Positions 2,649-19,110 of a stretch of DNA of 64,000 bases are shown in pieces. The stretch is from the NCBI RefSeq assembly GCF_017433805.1, contig NZ_JAFRGN010000043.1, positions 1 through 64,000 on the forward strand, written 5' to 3'. The DNA is from Butyrivibrio sp. (GTDB taxonomy: Bacteria; Bacillota; Clostridia; Lachnospirales; Lachnospiraceae). Positions within the stretch are counted from its first letter, which is position 1; each line of letters opens with the position of its first letter. The position numbers and the translations under genes were made by a program. The notes under the pieces are model-generated. The model searched no databases, had not been told where the DNA came from, and worked only from the letters and a program-made list of their open reading frames with translations.

Positions 2649-4295
<1,647 letters not shown>

Positions 4296-4308
4296 TCATA
4301 TAATATAC

Positions 4309-4464
4309 GAGTGATATACGGATTGCTCCGTTTCACTCTCGCAATCCTACATACATTCGGAATCCGCATTATCATGCTCCTTCCTCATGTATGTTCGCAT
4401 CCCGAGGTCAATTGATCATATGTGCAAGCACATGATCAATTGACTTCTGTCTGCTATATCACTC
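4309..4464 (-). repeat. Intercistronic structured repeat, copy A (groES-groEL spacer)
   Basis: A 156-base element with a ten-base terminal inverted repeat, GAGTGATATA at 4309-4318 and TATATCACTC at 4455-4464. Inside it, in plus-strand order, are a GGATTGC/GCAATCC hairpin, an ACATACAT/ATGTATGT stem enclosing a small hairpin, the conserved block GTTCGCATCCCGAGGTC, a long hairpin (CAATTGATCA arms, 4408-4442) and GACTTCTGTCTGC. It is highly similar to 18946-19110 except in hairpin arms and loops. The groES TGA stop lies at 4463-4465, overlapping the element boundary. Function unknown: RNA structure, mobile remnant, or both. Confidence 0.85.
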
Positions 4465-4747
4465 ACTTAATGATTGCAAGAATGTCGTTCTGCTTAACGA
4501 TGATGAATGTCTCGTCATCAAGCTTAACTTCTGTTCCAGCATATTTGGAATAGATGACATTGTCACCCTTCTTAACCTGCATCTTAACTTCCTTGCCGTC
4601 TACTACTCCGCCAGGACCTACAGCGATAACTTCAGCCTGCTGTGGCTTCTCCTTCTCTGCTCCAGGAAGAACGATTCCTGATTTTGTAGTCTCTTCAGCC
4701 TCAAGAGCCTTCAGTACAACTCTGTCTGCAAGTGGTTCTAACTTCAT
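4463..4747 (-). CDS. groES: 10 kDa co-chaperonin GroES
   Basis: Heptameric lid of the GroEL chamber. The 94-residue length, the opening MKLEPLADRVVLK and the closing KQNDILAIIK are typical. The mobile loop (ETTKSGIVLPGAEKEKPQ) is present. AAGGAGG lies upstream of the ATG. First gene of the operon; a CIRCE operator sits 47 bases upstream. The final codons AAG TGA run directly into repeat copy A, so the stop codon overlaps the end of that element. Confidence 0.98.
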   Translation of the reverse strand: MKLEPLADRVVLKALEAEETTKSGIVLPGAEKEKPQQAEVIAVGPGGVVDGKEVKMQVKKGDNVIYSKYAGTEVKLDDETFIIVKQNDILAIIK

Positions 4748-4793
4748 AATAAAGCCTCCTTTATATGTTAAATACTTTGCTTTTTAATTTTTG

Positions 4794-4820
4794 TTAGCAC
4801 TCATTATTATTGAGTGCTAA
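4794..4820 (-). promoter_or_regulatory. CIRCE operator (HrcA binding site)
   Basis: TTAGCACTC, nine bases, GAGTGCTAA: a perfect match to the CIRCE inverted repeat. It overlaps the expected transcript start of groESL and implies repression by HrcA, whose gene is not in this window. Confidence 0.97.
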
Positions 4821-4833
4821 TCTCTAAGAACAT

Positions 4834-4862
4834 ATATTAGTTGTTTATGGTTACACATGCAA
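4834..4862 (-). promoter_or_regulatory. groESL vegetative promoter
   Basis: On the minus strand TTGCAT, 17 bases, TAATAT, placed so that transcription begins just ahead of or within CIRCE. This arrangement is usual for HrcA-controlled operons. Confidence 0.7.
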
Positions 4863-4945
4863 CCTCTATCGCATCGATATATCTTAGCATATCTCTTTTA
4901 ATCTCTATATTACTCTATTATTCTCATATTTTCTACAATACATAT

Positions 4946-4990
4946 AAAAAGAGCTTTACAAAGCCCATTTTAACTGACTTTGTAAAGCTC
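4946..4990 (-). terminator. Terminator of the SIMPL gene
   Basis: A perfect 13-base stem GAGCTTTACAAAG/CTTTGTAAAGCTC followed on the minus strand by TTTTT, 17 bases past the stop at 5007. Confidence 0.9.
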
Positions 4991-5006
4991 ATTGGATGCA
5001 AAAATA

Positions 5007-5756
5007 TCACTTAAGATCATACTCAAGACGCACTGTTATAGAAGCTGTCTTGTATCTGGCGCTTGTATCAAAGGCTCCATCATATGTATAGCTGCTTGTT
5101 CCGGTATTTCTGGCTGTAATCTGGAATACTCCAAGACTTGAGTTCTTGAGTTTACCAAGACCTGCTCCTGAATTCTTGGCGATTATGTCTATTCTGTCCT
5201 TGGCATTTATTGAAGCCTTATCGATAAGATCGAGCTTGAGTGCATCAAGATCAGAATAATAGTACTCTGGTGAATTGGAAGTAAGCTCTACTCCTTTATC
5301 AAGAAGACTTGAAATGTCTCTGGATATCTTTTCAACCACATCAAGGTTGTATGAAGATACTGTAACACTCTGTGTGAGCTGATAGCCATCTGCTTCAGAG
5401 CCAATGTAATTACCATTATTATCATAATTGTCACGATAAGTTCTTCTGATATCCACAGAGTCAAAAATGATCTCCGCTTCCTGAACACCATTACTTGTGA
5501 GGTACTCTTTAACTACATTTGCATCCTTTTTGATCTTGTTGTAGGCCTCCTGCGATGTAAAGGCTGTAGATGAAAAAGAGCCTCTCCAGATGATAATATC
5601 TGATTCAAAATCAACACTGGCACTACCTGTTGCGGAAATGACATGAGAACTCTCAGATCTAAAGTGTGAAAGTCCAAAGGCTAAAAGAGCGCAGCTGCTA
5701 ACTACACACAGGCCAATTATAAGCGCATTAACCCAACTATTTTTCTTTTGTTCCAT
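5007..5756 (-). CDS. SIMPL-domain (DUF541) membrane-anchored protein
   Basis: A 249-residue protein with a basic N-terminus and one hydrophobic segment (residues about 9-28, VNALIIGLCVVSSCALLAFG), probably a signal anchor or a signal peptide, followed by an exported SIMPL domain. Family-typical features include ISATGSASV at the start of the domain and the repeated VTVSSYNLDVVEKI region. SIMPL proteins form large oligomers of uncertain function. The ATG at 5756 was chosen because AGGAGGG lies just upstream; a longer frame to 5840 has none. It is monocistronic, with its own promoter and terminator, and diverges from the small gene at 5977. Confidence 0.83.
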   Translation of the reverse strand: MEQKKNSWVNALIIGLCVVSSCALLAFGLSHFRSESSHVISATGSASVDFESDIIIWRGSFSSTAFTSQEAYNKIKKDANVVKEYLTSNGVQEAEIIFDSVDIRRTYRDNYDNNGNYIGSEADGYQLTQSVTVSSYNLDVVEKISRDISSLLDKGVELTSNSPEYYYSDLDALKLDLIDKASINAKDRIDIIAKNSGAGLGKLKNSSLGVFQITARNTGTSSYTYDGAFDTSARYKTASITVRLEYDLK

Positions 5757-5801
5757 ACTCTTCCCTCCTGAAATGCTAAGAAACTTCATAACTATACTAA
5801 T

Positions 5802-5830
5802 ATTATACGGACCGCCCAGTAATAATACAA
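5802..5830 (-). promoter_or_regulatory. Vegetative promoter of the SIMPL gene
   Basis: On the minus strand TTGTAT, 17 bases, TATAAT, 46 bases before the chosen ATG at 5756. Its position independently supports that start over the longer frame. Confidence 0.7.
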
Positions 5831-5976
5831 TTTTAATCACTTTTTAATTGCCACTTAATTGCATTTATGGTCCCTTCGAATAATAATAATCGTAAGATAC
5901 TATAGTTATTTTGTCAGAAAAAGGACTTTCTGACGTTTGCAACTTGAGCAAACGCTATACTCAAGGAGGTGAATAC

Positions 5977-6393
5977 ATGAGCACTAATTTCTTTTCAAGT
6001 TTATCTGGAAATTTTGATTATATGTCCAGCATGAATAGTCTTCTTGGCGACTATGCCAGCATCAAAAATGGCTCTTATGGTTCCCTGATGAAATCATATG
6101 TCAATAAAGTTGGTAACAAGGCAGCTCTGAATGCATACAGAGAGACTGGCTCTACAACTTCTGTGGCTGATACAGCCAGCTCTACCAGTACATCATCAAG
6201 TACATCAACAGCAAAGACATCCACAGCCAAATCTAGTTTCCTTGACAGCCACCTTGGCAGCGTAAGCAGTTCAGGACATGTTGAGAAATCAGCAACTCTT
6301 CAGAAGCTTAAAGAAACAGCAACCCAGTATGATAAGGATGCAAATAAGACTACAGTAGCAAATACACCAACAGAGTATGACACAACTATCTAA
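5977..6393 (+). CDS. Small Ser/Thr-rich protein of unknown function
   Basis: A 138-residue protein starting MSTNFFSSLSGNFDYM with a strong AGGAGGTG ribosome site. Residues about 18-45 (LLGDYASIKNGSYGSLMKSY) look ordered and conserved in style. A long linker of Ser, Thr and Ala follows, then a Lys-rich helical C-terminus. No signal peptide or membrane segment. I recognise no named family. Related-looking short proteins with an LGDY-IKNGSY-LMK stretch occur, from memory, in motile Lachnospiraceae, but I cannot confirm this. It is alone between a divergent promoter region and a shared terminator. Confidence 0.72.
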   Translation: MSTNFFSSLSGNFDYMSSMNSLLGDYASIKNGSYGSLMKSYVNKVGNKAALNAYRETGSTTSVADTASSTSTSSSTSTAKTSTAKSSFLDSHLGSVSSSGHVEKSATLQKLKETATQYDKDANKTTVANTPTEYDTTI

Positions 6394-6426
6394 AGTTCAT
6401 ATTCAGTTGGAATAAATAGCGCACTC

Positions 6427-6464
6427 AAAAAGGAAGTAACCACATTCAGCTGGTTACTTCCTTT
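6427..6464. terminator. Bidirectional terminator between convergent genes
   Basis: Stem AAAGGAAGTAACC/GGTTACTTCCTTT, flanked by A and T tracts. It ends the plus-strand gene at 6393 and the minus-strand operon ending at 6468. Confidence 0.88.
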
Positions 6465-6467
6465 ATT

Positions 6468-7358
6468 TTATTCTTCGCTATGCGGAATCTCTTTTCCATG
6501 CAGATCAATATAGTTTTCTTTAAGAGCTATCGCCCAGTATTTCTCAGGAATATTGGGCCATTTTACTGTTCCTCTCTCCTGCTCACAAAGCCTCATGGCA
6601 CGCAAAAGAACTGTCTGATTAAGGTCTACTCCGGTTCTGATGGTATGCATGGAAACCGCCGCCCAGGCAGGTGCATATCTGCTGACATCTGAGGACTTAA
6701 AATCTCTTATGATCTCTTTTCTGTTATAGTCCAGCTGAATATATTCTTCTTCCCAGCCTTTGGCACTACCATGTAATATGCAGAACTGAGTCTTACCATC
6801 ATAGTACCATGGGATTCCGATGGATCCAGGATTGATTGCCTTGTTTCCGCGGTATACATAAGTTCCCTGAATATGCGTATGCCCGTGTACCAGGCAATTG
6901 CCCTTAAGATGGGTTAATACCTTTTTGGTATTACGCTTTTCCTTATACAGGAGCTCTGAAGTATTGGATGGAGATCCATGACAATACTCAAAGGATGGAA
7001 AGCCCTTCATCTCAAATACGCCGTAGTTAGGTAGAGATTCAAAAAACTTAAAGTCTTTATCAGAAAGATTCTCGTAGGTATAAAGAAGCGCTCCTGAAGC
7101 CGACCCTTTACGCCAGTTCCCTGCGCCGCTATTACGGTAGTTTAAAAGATATTCTTCCCTGTTGCCTCTGATGATATATGTATTAAAGTACTGTTTGAGA
7201 ACATATATCTTTTCCATGGTCTTCTGAGGGCTCGGGCAGTCAGTGACATAGTCACCAAGGAGCATAAAGTTCGTAATGCCCTTGCCAACTGCATAGTCTA
7301 TACACGCCTGCAAAGCGCTATAGTTACCATGAATATCACTAAAAACTGCTATATCCAT
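6468..7358 (-). CDS. Calcineurin-type metallophosphoesterase
   Basis: Predicted cytosolic dinuclear-metal phosphatase of 296 residues. The metal-binding motifs appear in order: DIHGN (residues about 8-12), GDYVTD, GNREE, HGSP and HGHTH. The last third (about residues 200-296) goes beyond the core fold and is helical. Substrate unknown; YfcE-like or protein-phosphatase-like roles are possible. It starts 11 bases after the downstream ABC exporter subunit stops (7370), with GGGGA ahead of the ATG, so it is the last gene of that operon. Confidence 0.87.
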   Translation of the reverse strand: MDIAVFSDIHGNYSALQACIDYAVGKGITNFMLLGDYVTDCPSPQKTMEKIYVLKQYFNTYIIRGNREEYLLNYRNSGAGNWRKGSASGALLYTYENLSDKDFKFFESLPNYGVFEMKGFPSFEYCHGSPSNTSELLYKEKRNTKKVLTHLKGNCLVHGHTHIQGTYVYRGNKAINPGSIGIPWYYDGKTQFCILHGSAKGWEEEYIQLDYNRKEIIRDFKSSDVSRYAPAWAAVSMHTIRTGVDLNQTVLLRAMRLCEQERGTVKWPNIPEKYWAIALKENYIDLHGKEIPHSEE

Positions 7359-7369
7359 ATAATCCCCTG

Positions 7370-9184
7370 TCAGCCAAATACTGCATTGGTACTTGTTTCA
7401 TCAAACTGCTTGGTAAAGAGCTCGTAGTAATAACCTCTCTGATCCATGAGCTGCTGGTGAGTACCTCTTTCTATAATTTTACCATCATTAACCACAAGAA
7501 TGATATCTGCATCAACAATAGTTGATAATCTGTGTGCAATTACAAAAGAGGTTCTGCCCTTGGTAACTGTCACGATAGCGTCCTGAATAGCCTTCTCTGT
7601 AACTGTATCTATAGAAGCTGTGGCCTCATCAAGGACCAAAATCCTTGGATCAGCAAGAAGTGCTCTGGCAAAAGAAAGAAGCTGCTTCTCACCAGTTGAG
7701 AGCATTCCACCATCCTCTCCTACGTCGCTGTCAAGTCCCTTGTCCATACGCCTTACAATATCATCTGCCGATACCAGCTCAAGTGCTTTCCAGATTTCTT
7801 CCTCTGTAGCATCAGGATTACCATATCTAAGGTTATCTCGTACTGAACCAGAGAAAAGATGTGGTGTCTGGAGAACATATCCGATGTTGGAGTGAAGCCA
7901 TAGCTGTGACCTCTCTGCTGCATCTCTACCATCGATGAGAACCTGACCACTTGTAGGTTTAAAGAATCTGCACACAAGGTTAACAAGTGTAGATTTACCA
8001 GCACCTGTCTCACCAACAATCGCTACATTGGTACCCTGGGGAACCTTGAGGTTAAAGTTTGTAAGAACATATTCATCTCCATCAGGATATTTGAAGGTTA
8101 CATCCTTAAACTCAACATCACCGTGAAGTGGCTCCCAATTCTCTTTTTTAGGATTGAAGGTATCTCCGTATTTCTCGATAACCTCAGGAGAATCAGATAC
8201 ATCTGACTCTGTCTCAAGAAGCCTTGTAAGTCTCTCAACATTAACCTGAACGGCAATGAGCTCAGAAAGAGTGATGATAATGTTCTGAATAGGCTCCATC
8301 ATGCTAAGGGCATAGGACAGGAAAACAGAAAGTGTTCCTATCTGTATAACGCCGTCCAAAGTAATGATTCCACCTCGCCACAATACAAGTGCCAGCGCCA
8401 GGGAAGACATCATGGTAATTGCAGATGTGAAAAAGGCTGAATAATGAGTAGCATGCACCGAGGTTGCTCTCATCTTCTCAGTATCTTCTTCAAAGTCTCT
8501 CTGAATCTTATCCTCTACAACCAGAGTCTTTATTGCTCTGGCTCCGGTAATACCTTCATTGAAGTTACTGGTTATAGTTGAATTGATCTCTCTGATCTTA
8601 CGATTCAGCACTATAAGCTTACTCTGGAAATACATTACAAGTACCACTGCAATAGGCACCAGAACTATTACAAAAAGAGCCAGTCTGAAGTTGAGGATCA
8701 TCATCAGAACAAGTTCAAAAATAACGAACGCTCCCTGCCATATAATATCCATCATACGCCAAGACACCATCATACCGATTTTGCCGGTATCACTCATTAC
8801 TCTGGCATGGATATAGCCTACATTGTTCTGATTAAAGTAGGCAAAGGACAAGGTCTGTAAGTGGCTGAATGCCGCATTACGAAGATCTCTGTCCACAGAC
8901 AGTTCTACCTGTCCGCAGAGATAACAACATATGAAATTATCAACAACCTGAAGAACCAGAACTGCAACATAAAGTATTATGAATACCGACAGGCCTTCAA
9001 GAGTTTTTTTGCCAACAAAATTATCAATGGCATACTGATTAAAAATTGGAAATAACGAATCCGCAAGCGAGCTCAGAACTCCCAAGAAGATCATAAAAAT
9101 AATCTTGGGAATGTACTGCTTGATATACGGATACAATCTAGGTATTCCAAATAGTTTTAGTTTAATATTAGTATTCTCGTTCAT
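7370..9184 (-). CDS. ABC exporter half-transporter, subunit with catalytic Walker B
   Basis: A 604-residue fusion of a six-helix exporter domain (about residues 15-320) and an ATPase domain. Walker A is GETGAGKS, Walker B ILVLDEATAS with the catalytic Glu, and the switch region is IAHR. Its signature is altered, LSTGEKQ instead of LSGGQ. Together with the partner's altered Walker B this points to a heterodimeric exporter of the BmrCD/LmrCD/TM287-288 type, with one consensus and one degenerate ATP site. The ATG overlaps the partner's stop by four bases (ATGA), giving tight translational coupling. Cargo cannot be read from sequence; drugs, lipids or peptides are all possible. Confidence 0.93.
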   Translation of the reverse strand: MNENTNIKLKLFGIPRLYPYIKQYIPKIIFMIFLGVLSSLADSLFPIFNQYAIDNFVGKKTLEGLSVFIILYVAVLVLQVVDNFICCYLCGQVELSVDRDLRNAAFSHLQTLSFAYFNQNNVGYIHARVMSDTGKIGMMVSWRMMDIIWQGAFVIFELVLMMILNFRLALFVIVLVPIAVVLVMYFQSKLIVLNRKIREINSTITSNFNEGITGARAIKTLVVEDKIQRDFEEDTEKMRATSVHATHYSAFFTSAITMMSSLALALVLWRGGIITLDGVIQIGTLSVFLSYALSMMEPIQNIIITLSELIAVQVNVERLTRLLETESDVSDSPEVIEKYGDTFNPKKENWEPLHGDVEFKDVTFKYPDGDEYVLTNFNLKVPQGTNVAIVGETGAGKSTLVNLVCRFFKPTSGQVLIDGRDAAERSQLWLHSNIGYVLQTPHLFSGSVRDNLRYGNPDATEEEIWKALELVSADDIVRRMDKGLDSDVGEDGGMLSTGEKQLLSFARALLADPRILVLDEATASIDTVTEKAIQDAIVTVTKGRTSFVIAHRLSTIVDADIILVVNDGKIIERGTHQQLMDQRGYYYELFTKQFDETSTNAVFG

Positions 9185-10998
9185 GTTCCCTGCATCTGAA
9201 TATCATAAATCTTCTTGTAAATGCCGCCCTTTTCAAGTAACTGTTCATGAGTTCCCTGCTCAGCAATCCTGCCGTGGTCCAGAACAATTATGTTGTCGGC
9301 GTTCATCAGTGTCATAATCCTGTGCGAAATAAGAACTACTGTGGAATCTGAAGTATTCTCAGAAAGCGCATGTCTTATCTTGGCATCAGTCTGCGTATCT
9401 ACAGCAGAAAGTGAGTCATCAAAAACCATCACCGGAGGCTTGGAAACAAGCATCTGTGCAATAGCAGTTCGCTGTTTCTGTCCACCCGAGAGTGTTACAC
9501 CACGCTCACCAACATAGGTCTCATATCCCTTGGAAAAATCTTCTATAGTCTCATCAAGAGCTGCTATTCTGGCAGCTGCACGAATCTCTGCAAAATCAGT
9601 TTTCTTCTGAGTTATACCAATGTTCTCAGATAAGGTTCTGCTAAAAAGGAATGGCTCCTGAAGTACAAAGCCAATATTCTGACGAAGCCATGACGCCTTG
9701 ATATCTGTAATATCAGTATCTCCAACGAGAATTCTTCCGCAGCCTTCCTTAAGCCCATAGAGTCTGTCCATAAGGTACATAAGTGTGGACTTGCCTGAGC
9801 CAGTTCCACCAAGAATGCCGAAAGTTGTCCCTGCCTTGATGGTAAAAGATACATCTTTTAGAACTTCTCCTCCGCCGTTCTCATAAGCGTAGGATACATG
9901 GTCAAAGGTGATATCCTGATTAAGTGATGGAGTGACAGCTCCCTCTTTATCATGCTCAGTCTCTGAGTTCATGATATAGGCTATACGCTCTATTGATACT
10001 CCGGCTTTACTCATATCTGAGATGATTCTGCCAAGAGCTCTTACAGGCCAAACCAGCATGGAATTATATGATACAAAAGCAATATACTCACCAACTGTAA
10101 TAGTATCCTGAACGCAATAAACTGCACCCAGAACCGTAATCAGCATAACCTGAAGACCTGAAATAAGGTCATTGGAAGACCAGAAGGCTGCCAGCGTTCT
10201 CATAAGGTTGATCCACAGCTGGGTATATTCTGCGTTCTGTTTAACGAACCTGTCTTTTTCATATTTTTCACGGCCAAAGGCTCGTACAACCCTCACACCT
10301 GTCAGATTCTCCTGAGCAGTTGCAGATAGTCTTCCCTCTTCGCTGTCAGCTCTTTCAAACTCGGTTCTGATACGCTTATGGAAAAAGCCTGAATATATGA
10401 CAATTATAGGAATGAACACAGCTGATACAATTGACATAGGTATGCTGATGCCAATCATAAAATACATGGCTACAATTATCCTGATCGCAATTCTGAAAAG
10501 AGACAGCATCTGCTCAGAAATGAACATCTTGATAGTATCTACATCAGAAGTACATCTCTGAATGATATCTCCTGTGTGATTCTCTCCATGCCAGGTAAAT
10601 GGCAGGTGCATAATATGCTCAAAAAGCTTATCTCTCATTCTCTGGATAAGCTTCTCAGCACCCTGCGCATTACACAGCCTGAAGAGATACCTGAAGGTAG
10701 CAGTTAAAAGAGCTACCACAGCCACCACAAGAGCAATGTAATACAGATGGCCTCTAAGGAACTCTCTTCCTCCAAGGCCATCCATTATTCTTTTCAGATA
10801 GACAGGAACACTGTTCGACTCTGCATCTGAGATACAGAAGTCGACAGTGTACTGTATGATTTTTGGATTGATAAGATCAAAAAATGTAACCAGAACAGAA
10901 AAGATAATACTTAAAAAGAAAAATCTCTTGCTTCCCTCAAGGAAGTATAAAACCAAATCTGAATTAGATTTGAATCTTTTGTTATTATTTGATGACAT
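9181..10998 (-). CDS. ABC exporter half-transporter, subunit with degenerate Walker B
   Basis: Partner of the next gene. An exporter membrane domain occupies about residues 20-320, then an ATPase domain with GGTGSGKS, a canonical LSGGQKQR signature and LISHR. Its Walker B is VMVFDDS, with Asp where the catalytic Glu should be. That is the usual sign of the non-hydrolysing site in heterodimeric exporters. The ATG at 10998 has AGGGA upstream; an ATG at 11022 has no ribosome site. An inverted repeat (11003-11040) covers that ribosome site. The gene follows the SPFH gene by about 50 bases. Confidence 0.92.
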   Translation of the reverse strand: MSSNNNKRFKSNSDLVLYFLEGSKRFFFLSIIFSVLVTFFDLINPKIIQYTVDFCISDAESNSVPVYLKRIMDGLGGREFLRGHLYYIALVVAVVALLTATFRYLFRLCNAQGAEKLIQRMRDKLFEHIMHLPFTWHGENHTGDIIQRCTSDVDTIKMFISEQMLSLFRIAIRIIVAMYFMIGISIPMSIVSAVFIPIIVIYSGFFHKRIRTEFERADSEEGRLSATAQENLTGVRVVRAFGREKYEKDRFVKQNAEYTQLWINLMRTLAAFWSSNDLISGLQVMLITVLGAVYCVQDTITVGEYIAFVSYNSMLVWPVRALGRIISDMSKAGVSIERIAYIMNSETEHDKEGAVTPSLNQDITFDHVSYAYENGGGEVLKDVSFTIKAGTTFGILGGTGSGKSTLMYLMDRLYGLKEGCGRILVGDTDITDIKASWLRQNIGFVLQEPFLFSRTLSENIGITQKKTDFAEIRAAARIAALDETIEDFSKGYETYVGERGVTLSGGQKQRTAIAQMLVSKPPVMVFDDSLSAVDTQTDAKIRHALSENTSDSTVVLISHRIMTLMNADNIIVLDHGRIAEQGTHEQLLEKGGIYKKIYDIQMQGT

Positions 10999-11002
10999 AT
11001 TA

Positions 11003-11040
11003 TAATCCCTATTATTCTGCATTATTAGTGGCAGGGATTA
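11003..11040 (-). promoter_or_regulatory. Leader inverted repeat covering an exporter ribosome site
   Basis: TAATCCCT and AGGGATTA arms 22 bases apart, between the SPFH stop and the exporter start. In the transcript the second arm contains the AGGGA ribosome site of the exporter gene, so pairing would hide it. There is no T-tract, so it is not a typical terminator. Confidence 0.4.
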
Positions 11041-11048
11041 TCAAAATG

Positions 11049-11966
11049 TTATTTAACCACTTCCTTGATAGACTGCGCAAGACCAGCAATTCCCTGAATA
11101 TTTGAAGGAACAATGATCTTAGTAGCCTGTCCATCAGAAGCCTTCTCAAATGCCTCAAGGCTCTTGAGAGTAAGTACTGACTCATCAGCACCAGCCTCTT
11201 TTAACATCTTGATACCCTCAGCATTAGCCCTCTGAACGCTCTTAATAGCTTCAGCCTGACCTTCTGCTTCTCTTATTCTCTTCTCTCTCTCAGCTTCAGC
11301 TCTAAGGATTGTAGCCTGCTTATCAGCTTCAGCCTGAAGAATCTTACTCTGCTTCTCACCTTCTGCAACAGTGATCTGTGACTGCTTCTCACCTTCTGCG
11401 AAAAGGATCTTCTCTCTCTTCTCACGCTCAGCCTTCATCTGCTTCTCCATGGCATCTCTGATCTGCTCTGGAGGATTGATGTTCTTGAGCTCGACTCTTG
11501 TGATCTTGATACCCCAAGGATCAGTTGCAATATCAAGCGCATCCTGCATCTGTGCATTGATCTGATCACGTGATGTAAGTGTCTCATCAAGAGTAAGTGA
11601 ACCGATTACGTTACGAAGTGTTGTAGCTGTAAGGTTCTCAATAGCTCCGATAGGATTTCTAACACCATAAGCATAAGCCATAGGATCAGAAATTCTGAAG
11701 AATACGATTGAATCGATCTGCATAGTAACGTTATCCTGTGTGATAACAGGCTGAGGTGGGAAATCACAATACTGCTCCTTGAGATCAACCTGTCTAGCCA
11801 CTCTGTCGATAAATGGAACCTTGATATGAAGACCTACATCCCAGGTCTCCTTGTATGCGCCAAGTCTCTCTACTACATATGAGTGAGCCTGTGGCACGAT
11901 CTTAATATTTGCTGCAAATAAAATCAAAATAAGAATAATAAGAGCTAGTAAAACATAAATAGACAT
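11049..11966 (-). CDS. SPFH/stomatin-like membrane protein (QmcA/HflC-like)
   Basis: A 305-residue protein with one N-terminal membrane segment (residues about 3-22), an SPFH domain starting IVPQAHSYVVERLGAYKETW, and a long Glu/Lys/Ala coiled coil built from repeats such as AEGEKQSQITVAEGEKQ. The C-terminus is hydrophobic (IQGIAGLAQSIKEVV). Such proteins form ring-like membrane scaffolds, probably organising microdomains or controlling proteases. The start is three bases after the NfeD stop, and its ribosome site lies in the end of that gene. The NfeD-SPFH pairing is a well-known conserved partnership. Confidence 0.93.
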   Translation of the reverse strand: MSIYVLLALIILILILFAANIKIVPQAHSYVVERLGAYKETWDVGLHIKVPFIDRVARQVDLKEQYCDFPPQPVITQDNVTMQIDSIVFFRISDPMAYAYGVRNPIGAIENLTATTLRNVIGSLTLDETLTSRDQINAQMQDALDIATDPWGIKITRVELKNINPPEQIRDAMEKQMKAEREKREKILFAEGEKQSQITVAEGEKQSKILQAEADKQATILRAEAEREKRIREAEGQAEAIKSVQRANAEGIKMLKEAGADESVLTLKSLEAFEKASDGQATKIIVPSNIQGIAGLAQSIKEVVK

Positions 11967-11969
11967 AAC

Positions 11970-12413
11970 TTAAACCTCCCTTTCAACAATAAGCTTTGCT
12001 CCCTGAACGCGAACCACTCTAACCTCTGCTCCAGCCTCAATTACAACCTCATCAATACTGGAAGCTGCAAGCCATGTAGAACCATCCATATCAACTTTGC
12101 CAGTTCCCTTGATATTGTCAATTTCCACTTTGACAATCAGTTTCCTACCGACAAGAGCATCAATATTGGTCTTCTTAATGTGGTTATTAAAGTGCGCTGC
12201 TGCAATAGGCCGCACAGTTAAAAGAATAACCGTGGATACTATCACAAATGTAAAAAGCTGTACCCAGATATTTCCACCAAGAAGTGACACTATAATAGTC
12301 ACAGCTGCGCCGATGGCAAACCAGATAGTTATAAGTCCCATAGTGGAAAGCTCAATGACCGCAAGAACTACAGTCAGAAGCAGCCAGAATACTGCATATG
12401 AAACATTTGTCAT
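11970..12413 (-). CDS. NfeD-family membrane protein
   Basis: A 147-residue short-form NfeD. Three hydrophobic stretches (about residues 8-30, 32-50 and 54-70) are followed by a C-terminal OB-fold domain (LVGRKLIVKVEIDNIKGTG to KLIVEREV). Partner of the SPFH protein just downstream. The ATG at 12413 is seven bases from AGGAGG; an ATG at 12419 would sit one base from it, so the shorter start was chosen. Confidence 0.9.
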   Translation of the reverse strand: MTNVSYAVFWLLLTVVLAVIELSTMGLITIWFAIGAAVTIIVSLLGGNIWVQLFTFVIVSTVILLTVRPIAAAHFNNHIKKTNIDALVGRKLIVKVEIDNIKGTGKVDMDGSTWLAASSIDEVVIEAGAEVRVVRVQGAKLIVEREV

Positions 12414-12586
12414 CCCCATACCTCCTCTCTTAATGCTGCGATGCAGCTAGGATTATTATACTTCATTATCCTCTGGCAAGGAAGTACATATTTCCCGATG
12501 TAATCTGATATTTTCAGCATTTTTAATAACTATTTAATAATTCGCAGAACACATGTAAATGTTTTTTAGTTAACAATGTGTTATTA

Positions 12587-12592
12587 TATAAT
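12587..12592 (+). promoter_or_regulatory. Possible -10 element for the GGDEF gene
   Basis: TATAAT 55 bases before the ATG. The upstream sequence at the -35 position is T-rich but has no good TTGACA match. The rest of 12414-12646, between two divergent genes, shows no recognised riboswitch or operator. Confidence 0.35.
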
Positions 12593-12646
12593 GGTAGAAT
12601 TGTAATCGTTATGTCGTATTTATTATATAAATAACTGGAGGCTGAA

Positions 12647-14035
12647 ATGTCAGGTATCGATTATTCAACTCTCAAGAGTATAGTAAATCTTTGCGATATG
12701 CCCTGCGCTATCATGTCAGTAGAGAAAAAGGCAGATGGCACCTGTGGTGAGATTCGTATGGCCGCAACCAACAGTAAATTCAGCATGACTGGTGAAGATG
12801 TTGAGGGGCTGACCTATGATGCCAAGCTTCCCAAGGATCCAAAATTTGAAGATATTCTCTTCAAAGCGGCTTGGGAAAACGAGCATTATCATGCATATAT
12901 CGATACTTCAAGACTCTATGGATACTGGACTGAAGATATTATCATCCCAATGAACAACGGCGGCGATGATAAGATTGGTTACTGCCAGTTTATGTATAAC
13001 CTGAGTAAAGAAATGGAATCAGGCAAATATTCTATGATTTCACCTGATATAGCAAGCTTTGTTATCAGAACCTGCATTAATCTTCGTAAGGACGACGATT
13101 TCTATGCAACAATGGCAACTGTAACCAAAGATATCCGAGAGTTCACAGATTCTTTTGCTGCATCTATTATGACTGTTTCAAAGGACATGTACCAGTTTGA
13201 GGTTGTAAGTGAAAGCGTCAGAAATAACCTCAAAAACCTTCATGATGTATTTGCTGATATTCCTTATGAAGTTGTTGAATCCTGGGAAGAGCTCATTTCT
13301 GAGACAGACTGCATCATAATCCGCAATGAACAGGATATGAAGGATTTCGAATCCAAGGCACCAGAATGGGTTCAGACTCTTAGAGATAATGACGTAAGGA
13401 GTCTTATCCTTGCTCCTTTCATTCATCAGAACATGATCATCGGATACCTTTACATAACGAATTTTGACGTTTCTCATCTTTCCAGATTAAAAGACACAAT
13501 AGAAATGGTATCCTTCTTCCTTGCTTCTGAAGTTGCTCACCATATCTTCATAGACAAGCTCAAAACTCTCAGTTCGCTGGATATCAGAACCGGTGTACAG
13601 AACAGAAATGCCATGAACAGTAAGGTTGATGAACTTGCATTGGAACTTCGTATCAGTAAGACTCCATTCAGTGTAGCTTTCTGTAACCTGAACACTCTTC
13701 GTACAGTCAATATCCAGCAGGGCCACGATGCAGGAAATAACCTTCTTAGCGATGCCGGCAGGATCCTAAGAGATGTATTCAAGGATGATTTCATCTTCAG
13801 ATCATCCGGTGATGAATTTGCCATCATCTCAACCAACAGCTCCAAGGACGGCTTTGATGCCAAGATAAAAGAGCTGAAGGAAAAAGCCAACGATCCAGAA
13901 TGGGTTTACTTCACAGTTGGATACTACACTGACATGACGGAAGGAAACCTTCACGCTGCCATGAGATTTGCAAACGAATATGAGCAGGAGTTCAAGGAAG
14001 ACTTCTACTACAACAATCCTGACATGCTCAAATAA
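12647..14035 (+). CDS. GAF-GGDEF protein, probable diguanylate cyclase with SGDEF site
   Basis: A 462-residue cytosolic protein. The N-terminal third resembles a PAS-type sensory fold, the middle (about residues 160-310) a GAF-like domain, and residues about 320-455 a GGDEF domain. GGDEF marks are SLDIRTGVQNRNAMN, GHDAGN and RSSGDEF (387-391). The first Gly of the active loop is Ser and GHxxGD is GHDAGN. SGDEF proteins can be active, so cyclic-di-GMP synthesis is possible but not assured. No RxxD inhibitory site is evident. GGAGG precedes the ATG. The gene is monocistronic with its own terminator. Confidence 0.8.
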   Translation: MSGIDYSTLKSIVNLCDMPCAIMSVEKKADGTCGEIRMAATNSKFSMTGEDVEGLTYDAKLPKDPKFEDILFKAAWENEHYHAYIDTSRLYGYWTEDIIIPMNNGGDDKIGYCQFMYNLSKEMESGKYSMISPDIASFVIRTCINLRKDDDFYATMATVTKDIREFTDSFAASIMTVSKDMYQFEVVSESVRNNLKNLHDVFADIPYEVVESWEELISETDCIIIRNEQDMKDFESKAPEWVQTLRDNDVRSLILAPFIHQNMIIGYLYITNFDVSHLSRLKDTIEMVSFFLASEVAHHIFIDKLKTLSSLDIRTGVQNRNAMNSKVDELALELRISKTPFSVAFCNLNTLRTVNIQQGHDAGNNLLSDAGRILRDVFKDDFIFRSSGDEFAIISTNSSKDGFDAKIKELKEKANDPEWVYFTVGYYTDMTEGNLHAAMRFANEYEQEFKEDFYYNNPDMLK

Positions 14036-14054
14036 TTATATGAATTTTCCCACT

Positions 14055-14088
14055 AAAAAAGGTGCCATCGTAAACGATGACACCTTTT
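14055..14088. terminator. Bidirectional terminator between convergent genes
   Basis: Stem AAAAGGTGCCATCG/CGATGACACCTTTT with loop TAAA, followed by T-rich sequence on both strands. It serves the GGDEF gene and the GGGtGRT gene. Confidence 0.88.
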
Positions 14089-14104
14089 ATTATTGTTCAA
14101 ATAA

Positions 14105-15124
14105 TTAGAACTTACCAGCCTTAGCAGCCTCTTCGATTGATACAGCAGTTGAAACTGTCATACCAACCATAGGGTTGTTACCAGCGCCGATAAGACCCAT
14201 CATCTCAACGTGAGCAGGAACTGATGAAGAACCAGCAAACTGAGCATCTGAGTGCATACGTCCCATAGTATCTGTCATACCATAAGAAGCTGGGCCTGCA
14301 GCCATGTTATCTGGGTGAAGTGTACGTCCTGTACCGCCACCTGAAGCAACTGAGAAGTACTTCTTACCAGCCTCAACACGCTCCTTCTTGTATGTACCTG
14401 CAACTGGGTGCTGGAATCTTGTAGGGTTAGTTGAGTTACCTGTGATAGATACATCAACATTCTCCTTCCACATGATAGCAACACCTTCCTGTACGTCGTT
14501 AGCGCCGTAGCAGTTAACCTTAGCACGAGGTGAATTAGCATCCTTAGAGTAGCACTTTCTGAATACTTCCTTAACCTCACCTGTGTAGTAATCGTACTCT
14601 GTCTCAACATATGTGAAACCGTTGATACGAGAAATGATCTGAGCAGCATCCTTACCAAGACCGTTAAGGATAACTCTAAGAGGTTTCTGACGAACCTTGT
14701 TAGCCTTCTCTGCGATACCGATAGCACCCTCAGCAGCTGCGAATGACTCGTGACCAGCAAGGAATGCGAAGCACTCTGTATCCTCTTCAAGAAGCATCTT
14801 ACCAAGGTTACCATGTCCAAGACCTACCTTACGACGATCAGCAACTGATCCAGGGATACAGAAAGCCTGAAGTCCGATACCGATTGCAGCAGCTGCATCA
14901 GCAGCCTTGCGGCAGTTCTTCTTAATTGCGATAGCAGCACCTACAGTGTAAGCCCACTTAGCATTTTCAAAACAGATTGGCTGAATGCCCTCGATGAGCT
15001 TGTATACATCGATACCAGCATTCATGCAAATATCTCTACATTCTTCGATTGAAGAGATTCCATACTCCTTAAGGCAAGCCAGGATCTGGGGCTCTCTTCT
15101 TTCATATGATTCAAATAAAGCCAT
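14105..15124 (-). CDS. GGGtGRT protein
   Basis: A 339-residue cytosolic protein of the conserved family named for its glycine motif, here ASGGGTGRTLHPDN near residue 275. Family function is not established. It is almost always found next to an Fe-S scaffold-like gene, as here (23 bases apart, same operon), and it contains several Cys (for example CRDICMNAG near residue 30). A role in Fe-S or redox metabolism is inferred from that pairing only. AAGGAGGAA precedes the ATG. Codon use is strongly biased to favoured codons, suggesting high expression. Confidence 0.88.
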   Translation of the reverse strand: MALFESYERREPQILACLKEYGISSIEECRDICMNAGIDVYKLIEGIQPICFENAKWAYTVGAAIAIKKNCRKAADAAAAIGIGLQAFCIPGSVADRRKVGLGHGNLGKMLLEEDTECFAFLAGHESFAAAEGAIGIAEKANKVRQKPLRVILNGLGKDAAQIISRINGFTYVETEYDYYTGEVKEVFRKCYSKDANSPRAKVNCYGANDVQEGVAIMWKENVDVSITGNSTNPTRFQHPVAGTYKKERVEAGKKYFSVASGGGTGRTLHPDNMAAGPASYGMTDTMGRMHSDAQFAGSSSVPAHVEMMGLIGAGNNPMVGMTVSTAVSIEEAAKAGKF

Positions 15125-15147
15125 TTTAATTTCCTCCTTCTTACCTA

Positions 15148-15840
15148 TTACTCGTGTCTAGGATCGATGCATCTAGCTGCATCTGCAACACGTCCATACT
15201 GTCCCTTAGCCTTCTCAAGAGCTGTGTTAGCATCATCACCAGCCTTGATGAAGTCCATCATCTTACCAAAGTTAACGTATTTATATCCGATGATCTCATC
15301 ATTCTCATCAAGAGCAACATCTGTGATGTAACCATCTGTAAGCTCGAGGTAACGAGGTCCCTTCTCAAGTGTACCGTATGTTGTACCAACCATTGAACGG
15401 TTACCCTTACCAAGATCCTCAAGACCAGCGCCGATCTGAAGTCCATCCTCAGAGAATGCAGACTGTGTACGTCCATAAACGATCTGAAGGAAGAGCTCTC
15501 TCATAGCTGTGTTGATAGCATCACAAACAAGGTCTGTGTTAAGAGCTTCGAGAACTGTAAGTCCTGGAAGAATCTCAGCTGCCATAGCTGCTGAATGTGT
15601 CATACCAGAGCATCCGATAGTCTCAACGAGTGCCTCCTGAATGATACCTTCCTTAACGTTAAGTGAAAGCTTACAGCAACCCTGCTGAGGAGCACACCAG
15701 CCAATACCATGTGTATAGCCTGAAATGTCCTTAATTTCTTTTGACTTTACCCATTTAGCCTCTTCAGGAATGGGAGCAGCGCCATGATGTACCCCTTGTG
15801 TTACGGGACACATATTTTTTACCTCTGTTGAGTAAATCAT
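15148..15840 (-). CDS. Fe-S cluster assembly scaffold-like protein (NifU/IscU-type)
   Basis: A 230-residue protein with scaffold-type cysteines in HGIGWCAPQQGCCKLSLN and ETIGCSGMTHSAAMAAEILP, the latter like the conserved Cys-containing loop of IscU-type proteins. It is longer than IscU and has a C-terminal part ending RVADAARCIDPRHE. First gene of the two-gene operon with the GGGtGRT gene. AAGGAGA lies eight bases ahead of the ATG. Role in Fe-S handling is family inference; the substrate proteins are unknown. Confidence 0.83.
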   Translation of the reverse strand: MIYSTEVKNMCPVTQGVHHGAAPIPEEAKWVKSKEIKDISGYTHGIGWCAPQQGCCKLSLNVKEGIIQEALVETIGCSGMTHSAAMAAEILPGLTVLEALNTDLVCDAINTAMRELFLQIVYGRTQSAFSEDGLQIGAGLEDLGKGNRSMVGTTYGTLEKGPRYLELTDGYITDVALDENDEIIGYKYVNFGKMMDFIKAGDDANTALEKAKGQYGRVADAARCIDPRHE

Positions 15841-16084
15841 GTGAAAAATCTCCTTTCGTATTGTAAAGTAACTTTCATTACTTACTACCTATTAGATGAC
15901 CGCATGCCTTATGATATGCCACATGCAATCAAAGATGGCTCTTACATGTCAGTTTATATGCCGACCGTAGAACACCATTTTTATTTTTGCACAAATTCTC
16001 TAGTTTTTCAATGGTTTTTGATATTTTTTTAACATCCCATTTTCAGCATATTTTTTTCCAATAAATAGCATGGCTACGGGACAG
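15841..16084 (-). other. Long leader/promoter region of the Fe-S scaffold operon
   Basis: About 244 bases without a gene. It is AT-rich with several T-runs and holds one weak hairpin (GCATG/CATGC, roughly 15902-15930). TTGAAA with an AAAAAT 17 bases on is a possible weak promoter on the minus strand. I recognise no riboswitch, T-box or operator. The length suggests a regulated leader, but nothing more can be read. Confidence 0.3.
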
Positions 16085-16118
16085 AAAACAAGGAGTGCAA
16101 TCCTTTAGATCGCACTCC
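16085..16118 (-). terminator. Terminator of the chvE-mmsA-mmsB operon
   Basis: Stem GGAGTGCGATC/GATTGCACTCC with a five-base loop, followed on the minus strand by TTGTTTT, 26 bases past the mmsB stop. Confidence 0.85.
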
Positions 16119-16144
16119 CTGGCATAGTTTATAGATATTTAATA

Positions 16145-17335
16145 TTAGTTCTTAACGATCATCTTACCACCACGCTTAGATACAACGTCGAAGATAACAG
16201 CTGCAAGAAGAACGACACCCTTTACAACCTTCTGCATGTTGGCATCAACACCCATAAGAGACATACCAAGGTTGATAACACCCATAAGAACCGCACCAAC
16301 GATAACCCCCGGAACTGTACCGATTCCACCGTAAGCAGATGCTCCACCGATGAAACACGAACCGATAGCATCCATCTCGTAGTTCTGACCATATGTTGGC
16401 TGAGCTGATGTAAGTCTTGCTATTGTAACCATTCCTGCAAGTGCTGCAAGGAATCCCATGTTTGTGTAAGCAAGGAAGTATACCTTGTTTGTATCGATAC
16501 CAGAAAGCTTTGTAGCCTTCTCATTACCACCTACTGCGTAGAAATAACGACCAGTTGTTGTATTGCTTGTAATGTAACCATAGATGATTACTACGATGAG
16601 TACCCAGATAAGAACTGTAGGAATACCCTTATGCTGAGCAAGCTTATAAGCAAAAGCAAGAAGTGCTGCAGCAATGAGGATCATTTTACCAAGAAATGCC
16701 CATAATGGTTCTACATCATAGTGGCTGTCCACTTTCTTTTTACGGCTGAATAAGCTAAGTGAAACAATGGCAACTGCTCCAAGGATTCCACCAAAGAGAC
16801 ATGTAAGGTTAAGGCTTCCATTTCCAAAGAAGTCAGGAATATAACAATCTGCACCGCCACCAAAGAGGTTAACAAATGATGTCTTATCCTTGATTGATAC
16901 TGTAAGACCGCCGAGTACTACATTTGAAAGACCTCTGAAAGCAAGCATTCCAGCCAGTGTTACGATGAAAGGTGGAATTCTTACGAATGCGATCCAGAAG
17001 CCCTGGAAAGCACCAATTGCTGTTCCGATAAGAACCATAGAGAGGATTGAAAGCCACACAGGAACATTTAGGTTAACCATGAGTGTCGCACCAACCGCAC
17101 CTACGAAACAAACAACTGATCCAACTGAAAGATCGATGTTACCACCAGTTAAGATACAGAGCAGCATACCTGTTGCCAGGATAAATACATATGCATTCTG
17201 CGAAATCAGGTTACTTACATTCATTGGCAGAAGGATTGCTCCACCTGTCTGCCATGAGAAGAATCCCAATACTATGAGAAGCACTATGATCATAGTGTTC
17301 TTTTTCAAAAATCCAAATACTTTGTCCTTATTCAT
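16145..17335 (-). CDS. mmsB: Multiple monosaccharide ABC transporter permease MmsB
   Basis: A 396-residue integral membrane permease of the XylH/MmsB (GguB) branch with about ten hydrophobic segments. The conserved cytoplasmic motif region [20 protein letters not shown] near residue 330 is the EAA-like contact to the ATPase. It imports pentoses or hexoses with ChvE and MmsA. The ATG at 17335 lies inside the last codons of mmsA (overlap of eight bases, shared ATGAATAA) and uses AAGGAGGAG in the mmsA coding end. An ATG six codons upstream lacks that spacing. Last gene of the operon. Confidence 0.93.
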
Positions 17336-18881
17336 GTTTCTCCTCCTTAACATCGGCAGATCTTAAGATGCAAGCCATAATCTTCTCCTGTGTTGCATCC
17401 TTGGCATCCATTTCCCCTACCATCTTGCCTTCGTTCATAACATATATTCTGTCGCACATTCCCAGGATCTCTGGCATTTCAGATGAAATCATGATAACGG
17501 CTTTTCCCTCTGCTACCAGCTGGTTAATAATGCAGTAAATCTCATACTTGGCACCGACGTCGATACCTCTTGTGGGCTCATCCAGTATAAGAATATCCGG
17601 ATTAGCAAACATCCACTTTGCAAGAAGAACCTTCTGCTGATTACCACCACTAAGGTTTCCAACATTCTGTTCTACTGTAGGACACTTGGTTTTAAGCTTT
17701 TCCTTATACTCTACCGCTACTGAATACTCCTTGTGCTTATCAATTACACTCCTGTTGCTGACATCATCAAGATTAGCAAGAGTTGTATTTATCTTGATAG
17801 GATTTGAAAGAATAAGTCCATTTCCTTTTCTGTCCTCAGTAACGTATGCAAGTCCATGTTTGATGGCTGTATTTACGTTCTTAAGGTCAACAGGTTCCCC
17901 ATTTATAAGGATCTGTCCAGAAATATTTTCTCCATAGCTCTTTCCAAAGATACTCATTGCAAGCTCTGTTCTGCCTGCTCCCATAAGTCCTGAAATACCA
18001 AGAACTTCACCTTTTCTTACATTGATATTTACGTTATCAACAACTTTTCTATCTTTGTGAAGAGGATGATATACATTCCAGTCCTTAACTTCCAGCATAA
18101 CATCGCCGATATGAGGTTCTCTCTTAGGGAATCGATCTGAAATTTCTCGACCAACCATACCCTTGATGATGCGGCTCTCAGAGAAATCATCTACGCCCTT
18201 AGTAAGAGTTTCTATAGTAGAACCATCTCTTATTACCGTGATCTTATCCGCAACGTAGGATACCTCGTTGAGCTTATGAGAAATAATAATAGATGTAAGA
18301 TTTCTTTCTGCTTTAAGTCTAAGGAGCAGATCCAAAAGAGCTTTAGAATCTGTCTCATTAAGTGATGATGTAGGCTCATCCAGGATAAGAAGCTTGGCAT
18401 CCTTTGAAAGAGCCTTAGCTATTTCAACAAGCTGCTGCTTACCAACACCAAGATCTTTGATAAGCGCCTGTGTGCTTTCATGAAGACCTACTATATCCAA
18501 GAACTTTCTAGCAAGTTCGTTAGTTTCATTCCAATTAATTCTAAACTTTGTTCCTCTCTCATTTCCAAGGAACATATTCTCCGCAATTGTCATATACGGA
18601 ATAAGAGCCAGCTCCTGATGAATGATAACAATACCCTTTTCTTCACTATCCTTGATAGCATTGAACTGGCATACTTTTGAATCATATATAATGTCGCCTT
18701 CGTATGAACCAAATGGATATACTCCACTTAGTACATTCATGAGTGTAGACTTACCAGCGCCGTTCTCTCCAACCAGCGCATGAATTTCACCTTCTGCCAC
18801 TTGCAAATTTACATTGTCAAGTGCCTTAACCCCAGGAAAGGTCTTGGTGATATTCTTCATTTCCAATAATATCTTTTCCAC
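17328..18881 (-). CDS. mmsA: Multiple monosaccharide ABC transporter ATPase MmsA
   Basis: A 517-residue tandem ATPase of the sugar importer (GguA/XylG-like). The first domain has GENGAGKST, the signature [15 protein letters not shown] and [10 protein letters not shown]; the second has [26 protein letters not shown] and [10 protein letters not shown]. The atypical second Walker A (GAGRTE) is normal in this family. Translation begins at GTG (18881), seven bases after AGGAGG. It is separated from chvE by a hairpin and by repeat copy B. Confidence 0.94.
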
Positions 18882-18910
18882 CTTTGCCCCTCCTCCTTTC
18901 TTTCAAAGTA

Positions 18911-18936
18911 AAGGCGGGCTTTTTAGTTCCCGCCTT
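18911..18936 (-). terminator. Hairpin between chvE and mmsA (attenuator or mRNA 3' stabiliser)
   Basis: Stem AAGGCGGG/CCCGCCTT with a short loop, then TTTACTTT on the minus strand. The T-tract is poor, so readthrough is likely. Such hairpins often protect the abundant binding-protein message and reduce downstream expression. Confidence 0.6.
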
Positions 18937-18945
18937 ATATTTCTT

Positions 18946-19110
18946 GAGTTCTATACGGATTGCTCCGCTTCGCTTTCGCAATCCTACATACATTCGGAAT
19001 CCGCTAATTTGCAAGCAAATTGCTACTTCCTCATGTATGTTCGCATCCCGAGGTCAAAATGTCATTTGTGCAAGCACATGACATTTCGACTTCTGTCTGC
19101 TATATCACTC
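18946..19110 (-). repeat. Intercistronic structured repeat, copy B (chvE-mmsA spacer)
   Basis: A 165-base element matching copy A. Its ends are GAGTTCTATA (18946-18955) and TATATCACTC (19101-19110). It shares the GGATTGC/GCAATCC hairpin, the ACATACAT/ATGTATGT stem, GTTCGCATCCCGAGGTC and GACTTCTGTCTGC. The two internal hairpins differ from copy A in sequence and length yet remain paired: here AAATGTCAT arms (about 19057-19086) and a GCAATTTGC-type hairpin (about 19005-19024). The chvE stop TGA (19109-19111) overlaps its end, as groES does in copy A. Confidence 0.85.

Follow-up and report, generated by a model that had tools for sequence, protein, structure and literature searches.

A known orphan RNA carried by a mobile intercistronic repeat in Butyrivibrio

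Short repeats of several kinds populate the spaces between bacterial genes. Miniature inverted-repeat transposable elements (MITEs) and intergenic repeats such as RUP, BOX, ERIC and Correia/NEMIS are short, non-autonomous and intergenic, with terminal inverted repeats and target duplications, and those of the Correia type are co-transcribed and cut by RNase III. Repetitive extragenic palindromes (REPs) are single hairpins of 20-40 nt moved by RAYT transposases, and group IIC introns target terminators. Here we describe an element of 156-165 nt that occurs twice in a 64,000-nt stretch of a Butyrivibrio sp. genome (assembly GCF_017433805.1, contig NZ_JAFRGN010000043.1, positions 1 to 64,000; hereafter the window), once between groES and groEL and once between chvE and mmsA. 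It is a known orphan RNA, Clostridiales-1 RNA (Rfam RF01699), carried by a mobile intercistronic repeat. In a relative the element transposes as a short unit with terminal inverted repeats and target duplications, which we call form A. The window copies represent a second form, B, which ends at the closing stem of the RNA. Genomes and loci are cited below by G and L numbers where they have to be told apart.

Identity and distribution of the element

Both window copies lie on the minus strand. Copy 1 (4309..4464) opens within the groES stop codon, at its second base, and extends through the closing stem, with the ends 5' GAGTGATATA and 3' TATATCACTC and an exact terminal repeat (4309-4318 and 4455-4464). 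Copy 2 (18946..19110) likewise opens within a stop codon, at the second base of that of chvE, and its closing stem forms seven of nine pairs, the 3' half carrying two mismatches. Two gapless direct repeats link the copies, one of 94 nt at 88% identity and one of 59 nt at 92%; no other direct-repeat family in the window is as long. Each copy comprises the closing stem P1, a long hairpin P2 with a GCUUGC apex, a helix P3 with the most conserved sequence, and a hairpin P4. By alignment, P2 of copy 1, with hypervariable yet paired arms and a conserved apex, occupies 4397..4454, P3 (ACAUGAGGAA ... UUCCGAAUGU) occupies 4349..4394, and P4, a GGAUUGC ... GCAAUCC hairpin without a U-tract behind it, occupies 4320..4347, all on the minus strand. 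The corresponding parts of copy 2, on the same strand, are P2 at 19043..19100 (alignment), P3 at 18986..19040 and P4 at 18957..18984 (both from alignment and fold). No promoter-like or terminator-like sites were found inside the two window copies on the transcribed strand.

A first-pass annotation of the window, made from the sequence alone, had proposed one shared element in the two spacers, oriented in sense between the first and second genes. Its coordinates and the minus strand are confirmed, and the gene names are upheld by profile search (GroES, GroEL, ChvE and a sugar ATP-binding cassette (ABC) ATPase of GguA type). The description of the element as spacer sequence needs amending: the limits hold, but the element begins at the second base of the groES and chvE TGA codons and is not merely in the spacer. 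Nor does the proposal of an undescribed family survive, which was to fall if an exact Rfam match turned up. Both copies match RF01699 end to end (model positions 1-166 of 166), copy 1 with 119.2 bits (cmscan 4310-4463) and copy 2 with 102.4 bits (18947-19109), far above the cut-off of 48; the family itself is therefore already known, and a novel RNA family is ruled out. Nothing besides these copies reaches a cut-off in the Rfam scan of the window.

The repeat is by no means confined to the window, and a lack of further copies, which would likewise have refuted the first-pass proposal, was not observed. The genome in question contains 19 copies in total. The search covered 99 genomes (this one, 60 of the genus and 38 of the order) together with 14 control genomes, and found matches in 63 of the 99: the own genome, 60 of 60 of the genus, each with at least one, and 2 of 38 of the order. 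The controls gave 0 of 14, and the distribution agrees with an occurrence in Clostridiales. The matching relatives of the genus are Butyrivibrio, and other Lachnospiraceae appear among the named-contig matches listed. A single genome can contain 19 to 42 diverged copies. Among plasmid records, one matches form A and none matches a window copy at that sensitivity. In G081, which belongs to another family of the same order, the element forms tandem arrays (L104, L105, L107), that of L107 consisting of five copies directly behind a terminator T-tract.

The entry for RF01699 in Weinberg et al. 2010 (PMC2864571) gives it as probably an RNA, neither cis-regulatory nor a riboswitch, from Clostridiales and the human gut, and its Rfam type is Gene; sRNA (small RNA). 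The examined portion of that article's text contains nothing on mobility, on seating at stop codons or on a closing stem fitted to the host gene. The literature searched, with subscription papers and supplements outside the search, yielded nothing on the mobility or function of the family, and these three properties appear to be new within it.

Mobility and seating at stop codons

Mobility is best seen in form A of B. fibrisolvens D1 (G042), where 14 copies of 189 nt, 11 on the chromosome and three on plasmid pNP243, are 97.9-100% identical. They end in 19-bp inverted repeats (16 of 19 positions identical) and all 14 are flanked by AT-rich target duplications, of 6 bp in 13 cases and 7 bp in one. 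Form A thereby displays both the terminal inverted repeats and the target duplication of constant length that characterize a MITE, and the earlier guess of a non-autonomous mobile element is substantiated in this relative. If three longer copies of the same genome are included, 15 of 17 show a duplication of at least 5 bp, compared with a mean of 0.7 and a maximum of 5 for shuffled partners. These 17 copies display no preference in orientation (10 sense relative to their neighbours), and only one lies at a stop codon. Similar ends with a duplication also occur in G028, G018 and G007. The inverted ends of the window copies consist of the 10-bp closing stem only, and no target duplication was seen beside them by eye.

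An autonomous partner was sought by an end-pattern search of G042, G028, G043, G007 and G026, and no end pair 0.5-5 kb apart was found around a transposase. One pair of ends 1.7 kb apart in G042 (L108), consisting of a 5' part and a 3' part of the element, flanks an unrelated open reading frame (ORF) of 502 aa, which we take to resemble a GH32 sucrose/fructan hydrolase. Its outer duplications do not match, so that L108 is rejected as a cargo element and read as two partial copies. Fragments are also present in G042, with approximately 13 solo 3' ends showing variable 5' loss and one or two solo 5' ends; loci with solo ends are L109, L111, L112, L114-L118, L120-L122, L124 and L099, and at L109 the terminal part of a gene continues into the fragment. 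The same genome holds a shorter family with the same RNA core (L098, L100-L103), each copy of which directly follows a terminator T-tract and is closed by a hairpin of its own; four of the five copies scored alike, at 35 bits.

Form B occupies a rather different position. In the window's genome 18 of 19 copies start between -8 and +7 nt from the stop codon of the upstream sense ORF, and for the 15 copies with a sense gene behind them the chance of this under uniform placement in the spacer is about 10^-14. Across all sampled genomes, 78 of 114 flanked copies start within -11 to +7 of a stop codon, as against 3 of 114 in a mirror-image control; the gene behind these 78 is in sense in 64 cases, in antisense in seven and absent from the locus in seven. 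An independent set of matches on named contigs, from which 35 matches near contig ends were skipped, places 44 of 81 copies at a stop, as against 4 of 81 in its mirror control; in 39 of these 44 the stop precedes the P3 motif by 66-83 nt. The genes on either side of the 19 copies have housekeeping, flagellar and transport functions and are unrelated to one another, and among these copies there is no consistent class of downstream gene of the kind that marks a riboswitch or cis-regulatory leader.

Because the element carries stop codons of its own, the naturalness of the host stops needed checking. All seven informative upstream proteins (GroES, ChvE, Upp, ArgS, MetG, GlyS and the P-II part of L014) are of full length, reaching the end of their NCBIfam profile, and the comparison for Pgk was uninformative. 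Loci of three genes were also read in relatives: 30 of 56 matching genomes for groES, 30 of 61 for chvE and 30 of 61 for upp. The protein end of GroES is common to all 30 loci, give or take a residue or two, and relatives without the element have the same last residue and a TAA stop. The element is present at this stop in eight of 30 loci and as remnants in two (G024, G030), the rest having the stop and a short spacer, in some with unrelated repeats. Among the latter, the groES-groEL spacers of G037 and G055 (L129, L135) contain tandem 40-bp units and a GCCTTCTCCC...GGATGAGGG hairpin element. Upp ends in GTK in 29 of 30 loci and in GTR in one, with the element at eight of the 30 stops, belonging to several element lineages, and remnants in G032 and G021.

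At chvE the full element is present in one of 30 loci, that of the window's genome, and the stop codon is TAA in 28 of 30 (28 of the 29 besides the window's). The place is already held in relatives by a GC-rich hairpin, GGCGGG ... CCCGCC, at 18911..18937 on the minus strand of the window. This hairpin is older, being found also in relatives without the element, and it is intact behind the insertion; copy 2 was inserted between the chvE stop codon and the hairpin. Such a hairpin stands between the genes for the sugar-binding protein and the ABC ATPase in nearly all of the 30 loci (L155-L184). The chvE locus of G017 has a hairpin-only derivative, and at the chvE stop of G014 (L160) there is a different hairpin element with inverted ends and without the RNA core.

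The host genes in the window are all on the minus strand. The groES gene (4463..4747; ORF, NCBIfam GroES 1-94 of 94) has its TGA stop at 4465-4463, overlapping the start of copy 1, and groEL (2649..4274) follows 34 nt downstream of the copy. The gene for the chvE-type sugar-binding protein (19109..20185) ends in a TGA at 19111-19109 that overlaps the start of copy 2, and the gene for the sugar ABC ATPase (mmsA/gguA type, 17328..18881) lies 64 nt downstream of it; these two and groEL are supported by ORF and profile match.

Selection on the fold and the proposed role

Both window copies fold far more stably than shuffled sequences, copy 1 with -71.5 kcal/mol (z -10.1) and copy 2 with -63.8 kcal/mol (z -7.5), and 0 of 200 shuffles were as low in either case. 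In a set of ten related copies from six genomes, comprising 55 pairs, 92.8% of cells are paired, and two-sided changes affect 14 of the 55 pairs (37 cells), a figure reached in 0 of 500 shuffles. The signal is destroyed when the partner is slid by 1-3 columns. The claim of a structured repeat family with selection on its structure is supported. The variation is concentrated in the distal arms of P2: among six copies, 12 of 15 pairwise comparisons give differences there at 33-72% of sites and the other three at 0-17%, while the remainder of the element differs at 3-17%; nonetheless, 15-16 of 16 P2 pairs form in all ten copies. P1 has no two-sided change in this set, and its covariation appears only against other subfamilies. 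Copies at the same site were also compared. Five comparisons at four sites, recognized by their flanks as common to relatives, provide 341 pairs. Of these, 271 are unchanged and 21 are broken; pairing survives a one-sided change in 21 and a two-sided change in 28. Three further pairs involve gaps. At one shared site the pair adjoining the stop codon went from T-A to G-C. Compensatory changes between copies at one site argue for a function of the structure in place, and the pattern of substitutions indicates that the fold is under selection there. Recently moved copies keep the same fold, which therefore may also serve mobility.

The closing stem is linked to the host gene. P1 abuts or includes the stop codon and is able to pair with the last codons of the host. 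In the upp loci of G014, G039 and G040, comparison with relatives that lack the element shows that the 5' strand of P1 is formed by the end of the host gene itself (Thr-Lys-stop); the element's 3' strand is complementary to this end, most fully in G014. Over 86 copies, the complementarity of the element's 3' end to the 12 nt ending in the stop of its own host is 4.83, compared with 4.00 for other hosts (0 of 200 permutations), a figure partly owed to stop codons borne by the element. The fairer test, against the 12 coding bases before the stop, gives a weaker effect (4.15 against 3.89, 1 of 200), and with sequence further upstream there is none (3.51 against 3.58, 162 of 200). The variable P2 arms were likewise considered as a target guide, and this was rejected: they match their own left flank no better than those of others (4.44 against 4.37, 19 of 60 permutations as high). 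Scores against the right flank are higher on the same strand (5.45 against 4.62, 0 of 60) and on the other strand (4.75 against 4.56, 2 of 60), and are provisionally put down to tandem or partial second copies that these flanks include.

What could be the role of such an element? We propose, with about even confidence for and against, that a non-autonomous mobile element has been repeatedly domesticated as a cis-acting RNA at the 3' ends of genes, where it probably acts as a barrier to mRNA decay or a site of processing. Form B would be transcribed within the operon of its host gene, and behind the terminating ribosome a stable four-helix RNA would form, starting at the stop codon. At the 3' end of the first gene this RNA might serve both as a barrier and as a processing point, shielding that gene's message from 3' decay and separating or insulating expression of the second gene. 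With P1 adjacent to the stop codon or overlapping it, terminating ribosomes would keep the stem open, and the closed state might report the translation load of the first gene. The first-pass annotation had considered both protection of the first message and tuning of the second gene; on positional grounds the former seems to fit the stop codon better. The conserved P3 suggests a bound protein. A much bolder extension, which we regard as very unlikely, is a class of mobile elements that homes to stop codons and gains, on or after insertion, a closing stem that pairs with the host's final codons, made as an inverted copy of the target (as in upp of the three genomes), and with it a built-in sensor of translation termination. 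Such a stem could arise if an RNA or a snap-back single-strand intermediate were copied at the target.

Several observations weigh against domestication as a barrier at gene ends. The stop-codon form was never caught in a fresh multi-copy burst; 36 copies out of 114 and 37 out of 81 lie elsewhere than at an upstream sense stop; and the shorter G042 family and the G081 copies follow terminator T-tracts, those of G081 also in tandem arrays. An ORF entering the element ends there, and natural ends are shown only for groES, chvE, upp and the profile-checked proteins. The remnants show that the element can be lost. The low share of G-U pairs in P2 (82 of 1,993) is compatible with selection at the DNA level, and the blockwise change of the P2 arms suits template switching as well as selection. 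A simple decay barrier would also leave the strong conservation of P3 unexplained. Finally, a promoter-like site (at least 10 of 12 matches) abuts six of 38 free-standing copies, as a free RNA gene would have it. The corresponding counts are 1 of 114 for upstream controls, 2 of 38 for the mirror side and 0 of 51 for stop-codon copies. The copies that start shortly after a promoter-like -10 box (L323, L294, L230, L257, L327, L256) are possible RNA genes with a start of their own.

These sigma-70-like promoters, together with the conserved P3 and the Rfam type, would suit a free-standing trans-acting RNA, with the operon copies read or processed out of the operon transcript. We consider this quite unlikely: 18 of the 19 copies in the window's genome are in sense at stops, the two window copies have no promoter-like or terminator-like site, none of the 51 stop-codon copies has such a promoter, and 19 to 42 diverged copies in one genome are unlike an ordinary sRNA gene. 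A purely selfish repeat, similar to REPs or MITEs, is somewhat easier to accept although still unlikely. Its arms would stay paired because templates switch at imperfect palindromes or because transposition requires it. Recent transposition and blockwise change of the arms with few G-U steps are in line with this, as are the remnants and internally deleted copies seen at groES, chvE and upp, which show the element to be dispensable. It would not account for sense orientation at stop codons or for compensatory and G-U changes between same-site copies, and fresh copies in G042 have neither preference.

The seating itself may reflect either retention after random insertion or a choice of target, and preferential insertion at stop codons is a real possibility, albeit one that we doubt on balance. 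A tree was built from 114 copies, without six from G081 and with six additional ones from groES; on it the nine groES copies occupy three places, and forcing them together costs 101.5 log-likelihood units (approximately unbiased test, p 0.016). Since they do not form one clade, the same stop codon was hit repeatedly or copies were overwritten by ectopic gene conversion, which could yield the same tree. The several lineages at the upp stop and the improbability of uniform placement speak for target choice as well; against it, the form seen moving duplicates AT-rich 6-mers away from stops, and other copies follow terminator T-tracts or promoters. As to the route of movement, retroposition of an RNA copy in the manner of short interspersed elements would agree with the excess of solo 3' ends, with a transcribed and structured element and with the failure of the end-pattern search to find an autonomous DNA element with matching ends. 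We think it highly improbable, given that the 5'-less copies show no target duplications by eye, as later deletions would not, and that the inverted ends and the duplications of constant length are in keeping with a DNA transposase.

Comparison with known systems

An orphan Rfam family without a known role since 2010 thus emerges as a mobile element in one relative, seated mostly in sense at stop codons and with its structure selected at shared sites. This turns "function unknown" into testable claims about the processing of operon mRNA and about how mobile elements turn into cis-regulatory RNAs. The case also serves as a warning that "sRNA" families rich in copies may be repeats.

With MITEs and intergenic repeats the element has in common that it is short, non-autonomous and intergenic, and form A shares their inverted ends and target duplications. 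It differs from them in carrying a conserved four-helix RNA with near-invariant internal sequence, and in its stop-codon form both orientation and position are constant with respect to the preceding gene. The resemblance to REPs, their mosaic assemblies (BIMEs) and the malE-malF stabilisers is one of setting and proposed function, since all are intercistronic, transcribed and placed behind a highly needed first gene; at 156-165 nt, however, the element departs from REPs in size, termini and duplications alike. Group IIC introns find a parallel in the second G042 family, which has the same RNA core and lies directly after terminator T-tracts, although size and termini differ and Rfam reports no group II intron domain in the window. 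The element is the same as Clostridiales-1 RNA, whose covariance model both window copies fit from end to end. In contrast to the family as listed in 2010, where it is not cis-regulatory (PMC2864571, from the portion of its text examined), it is found here as a mobile repeat that is seated at stop codons and whose closing stem is fitted to the host gene.

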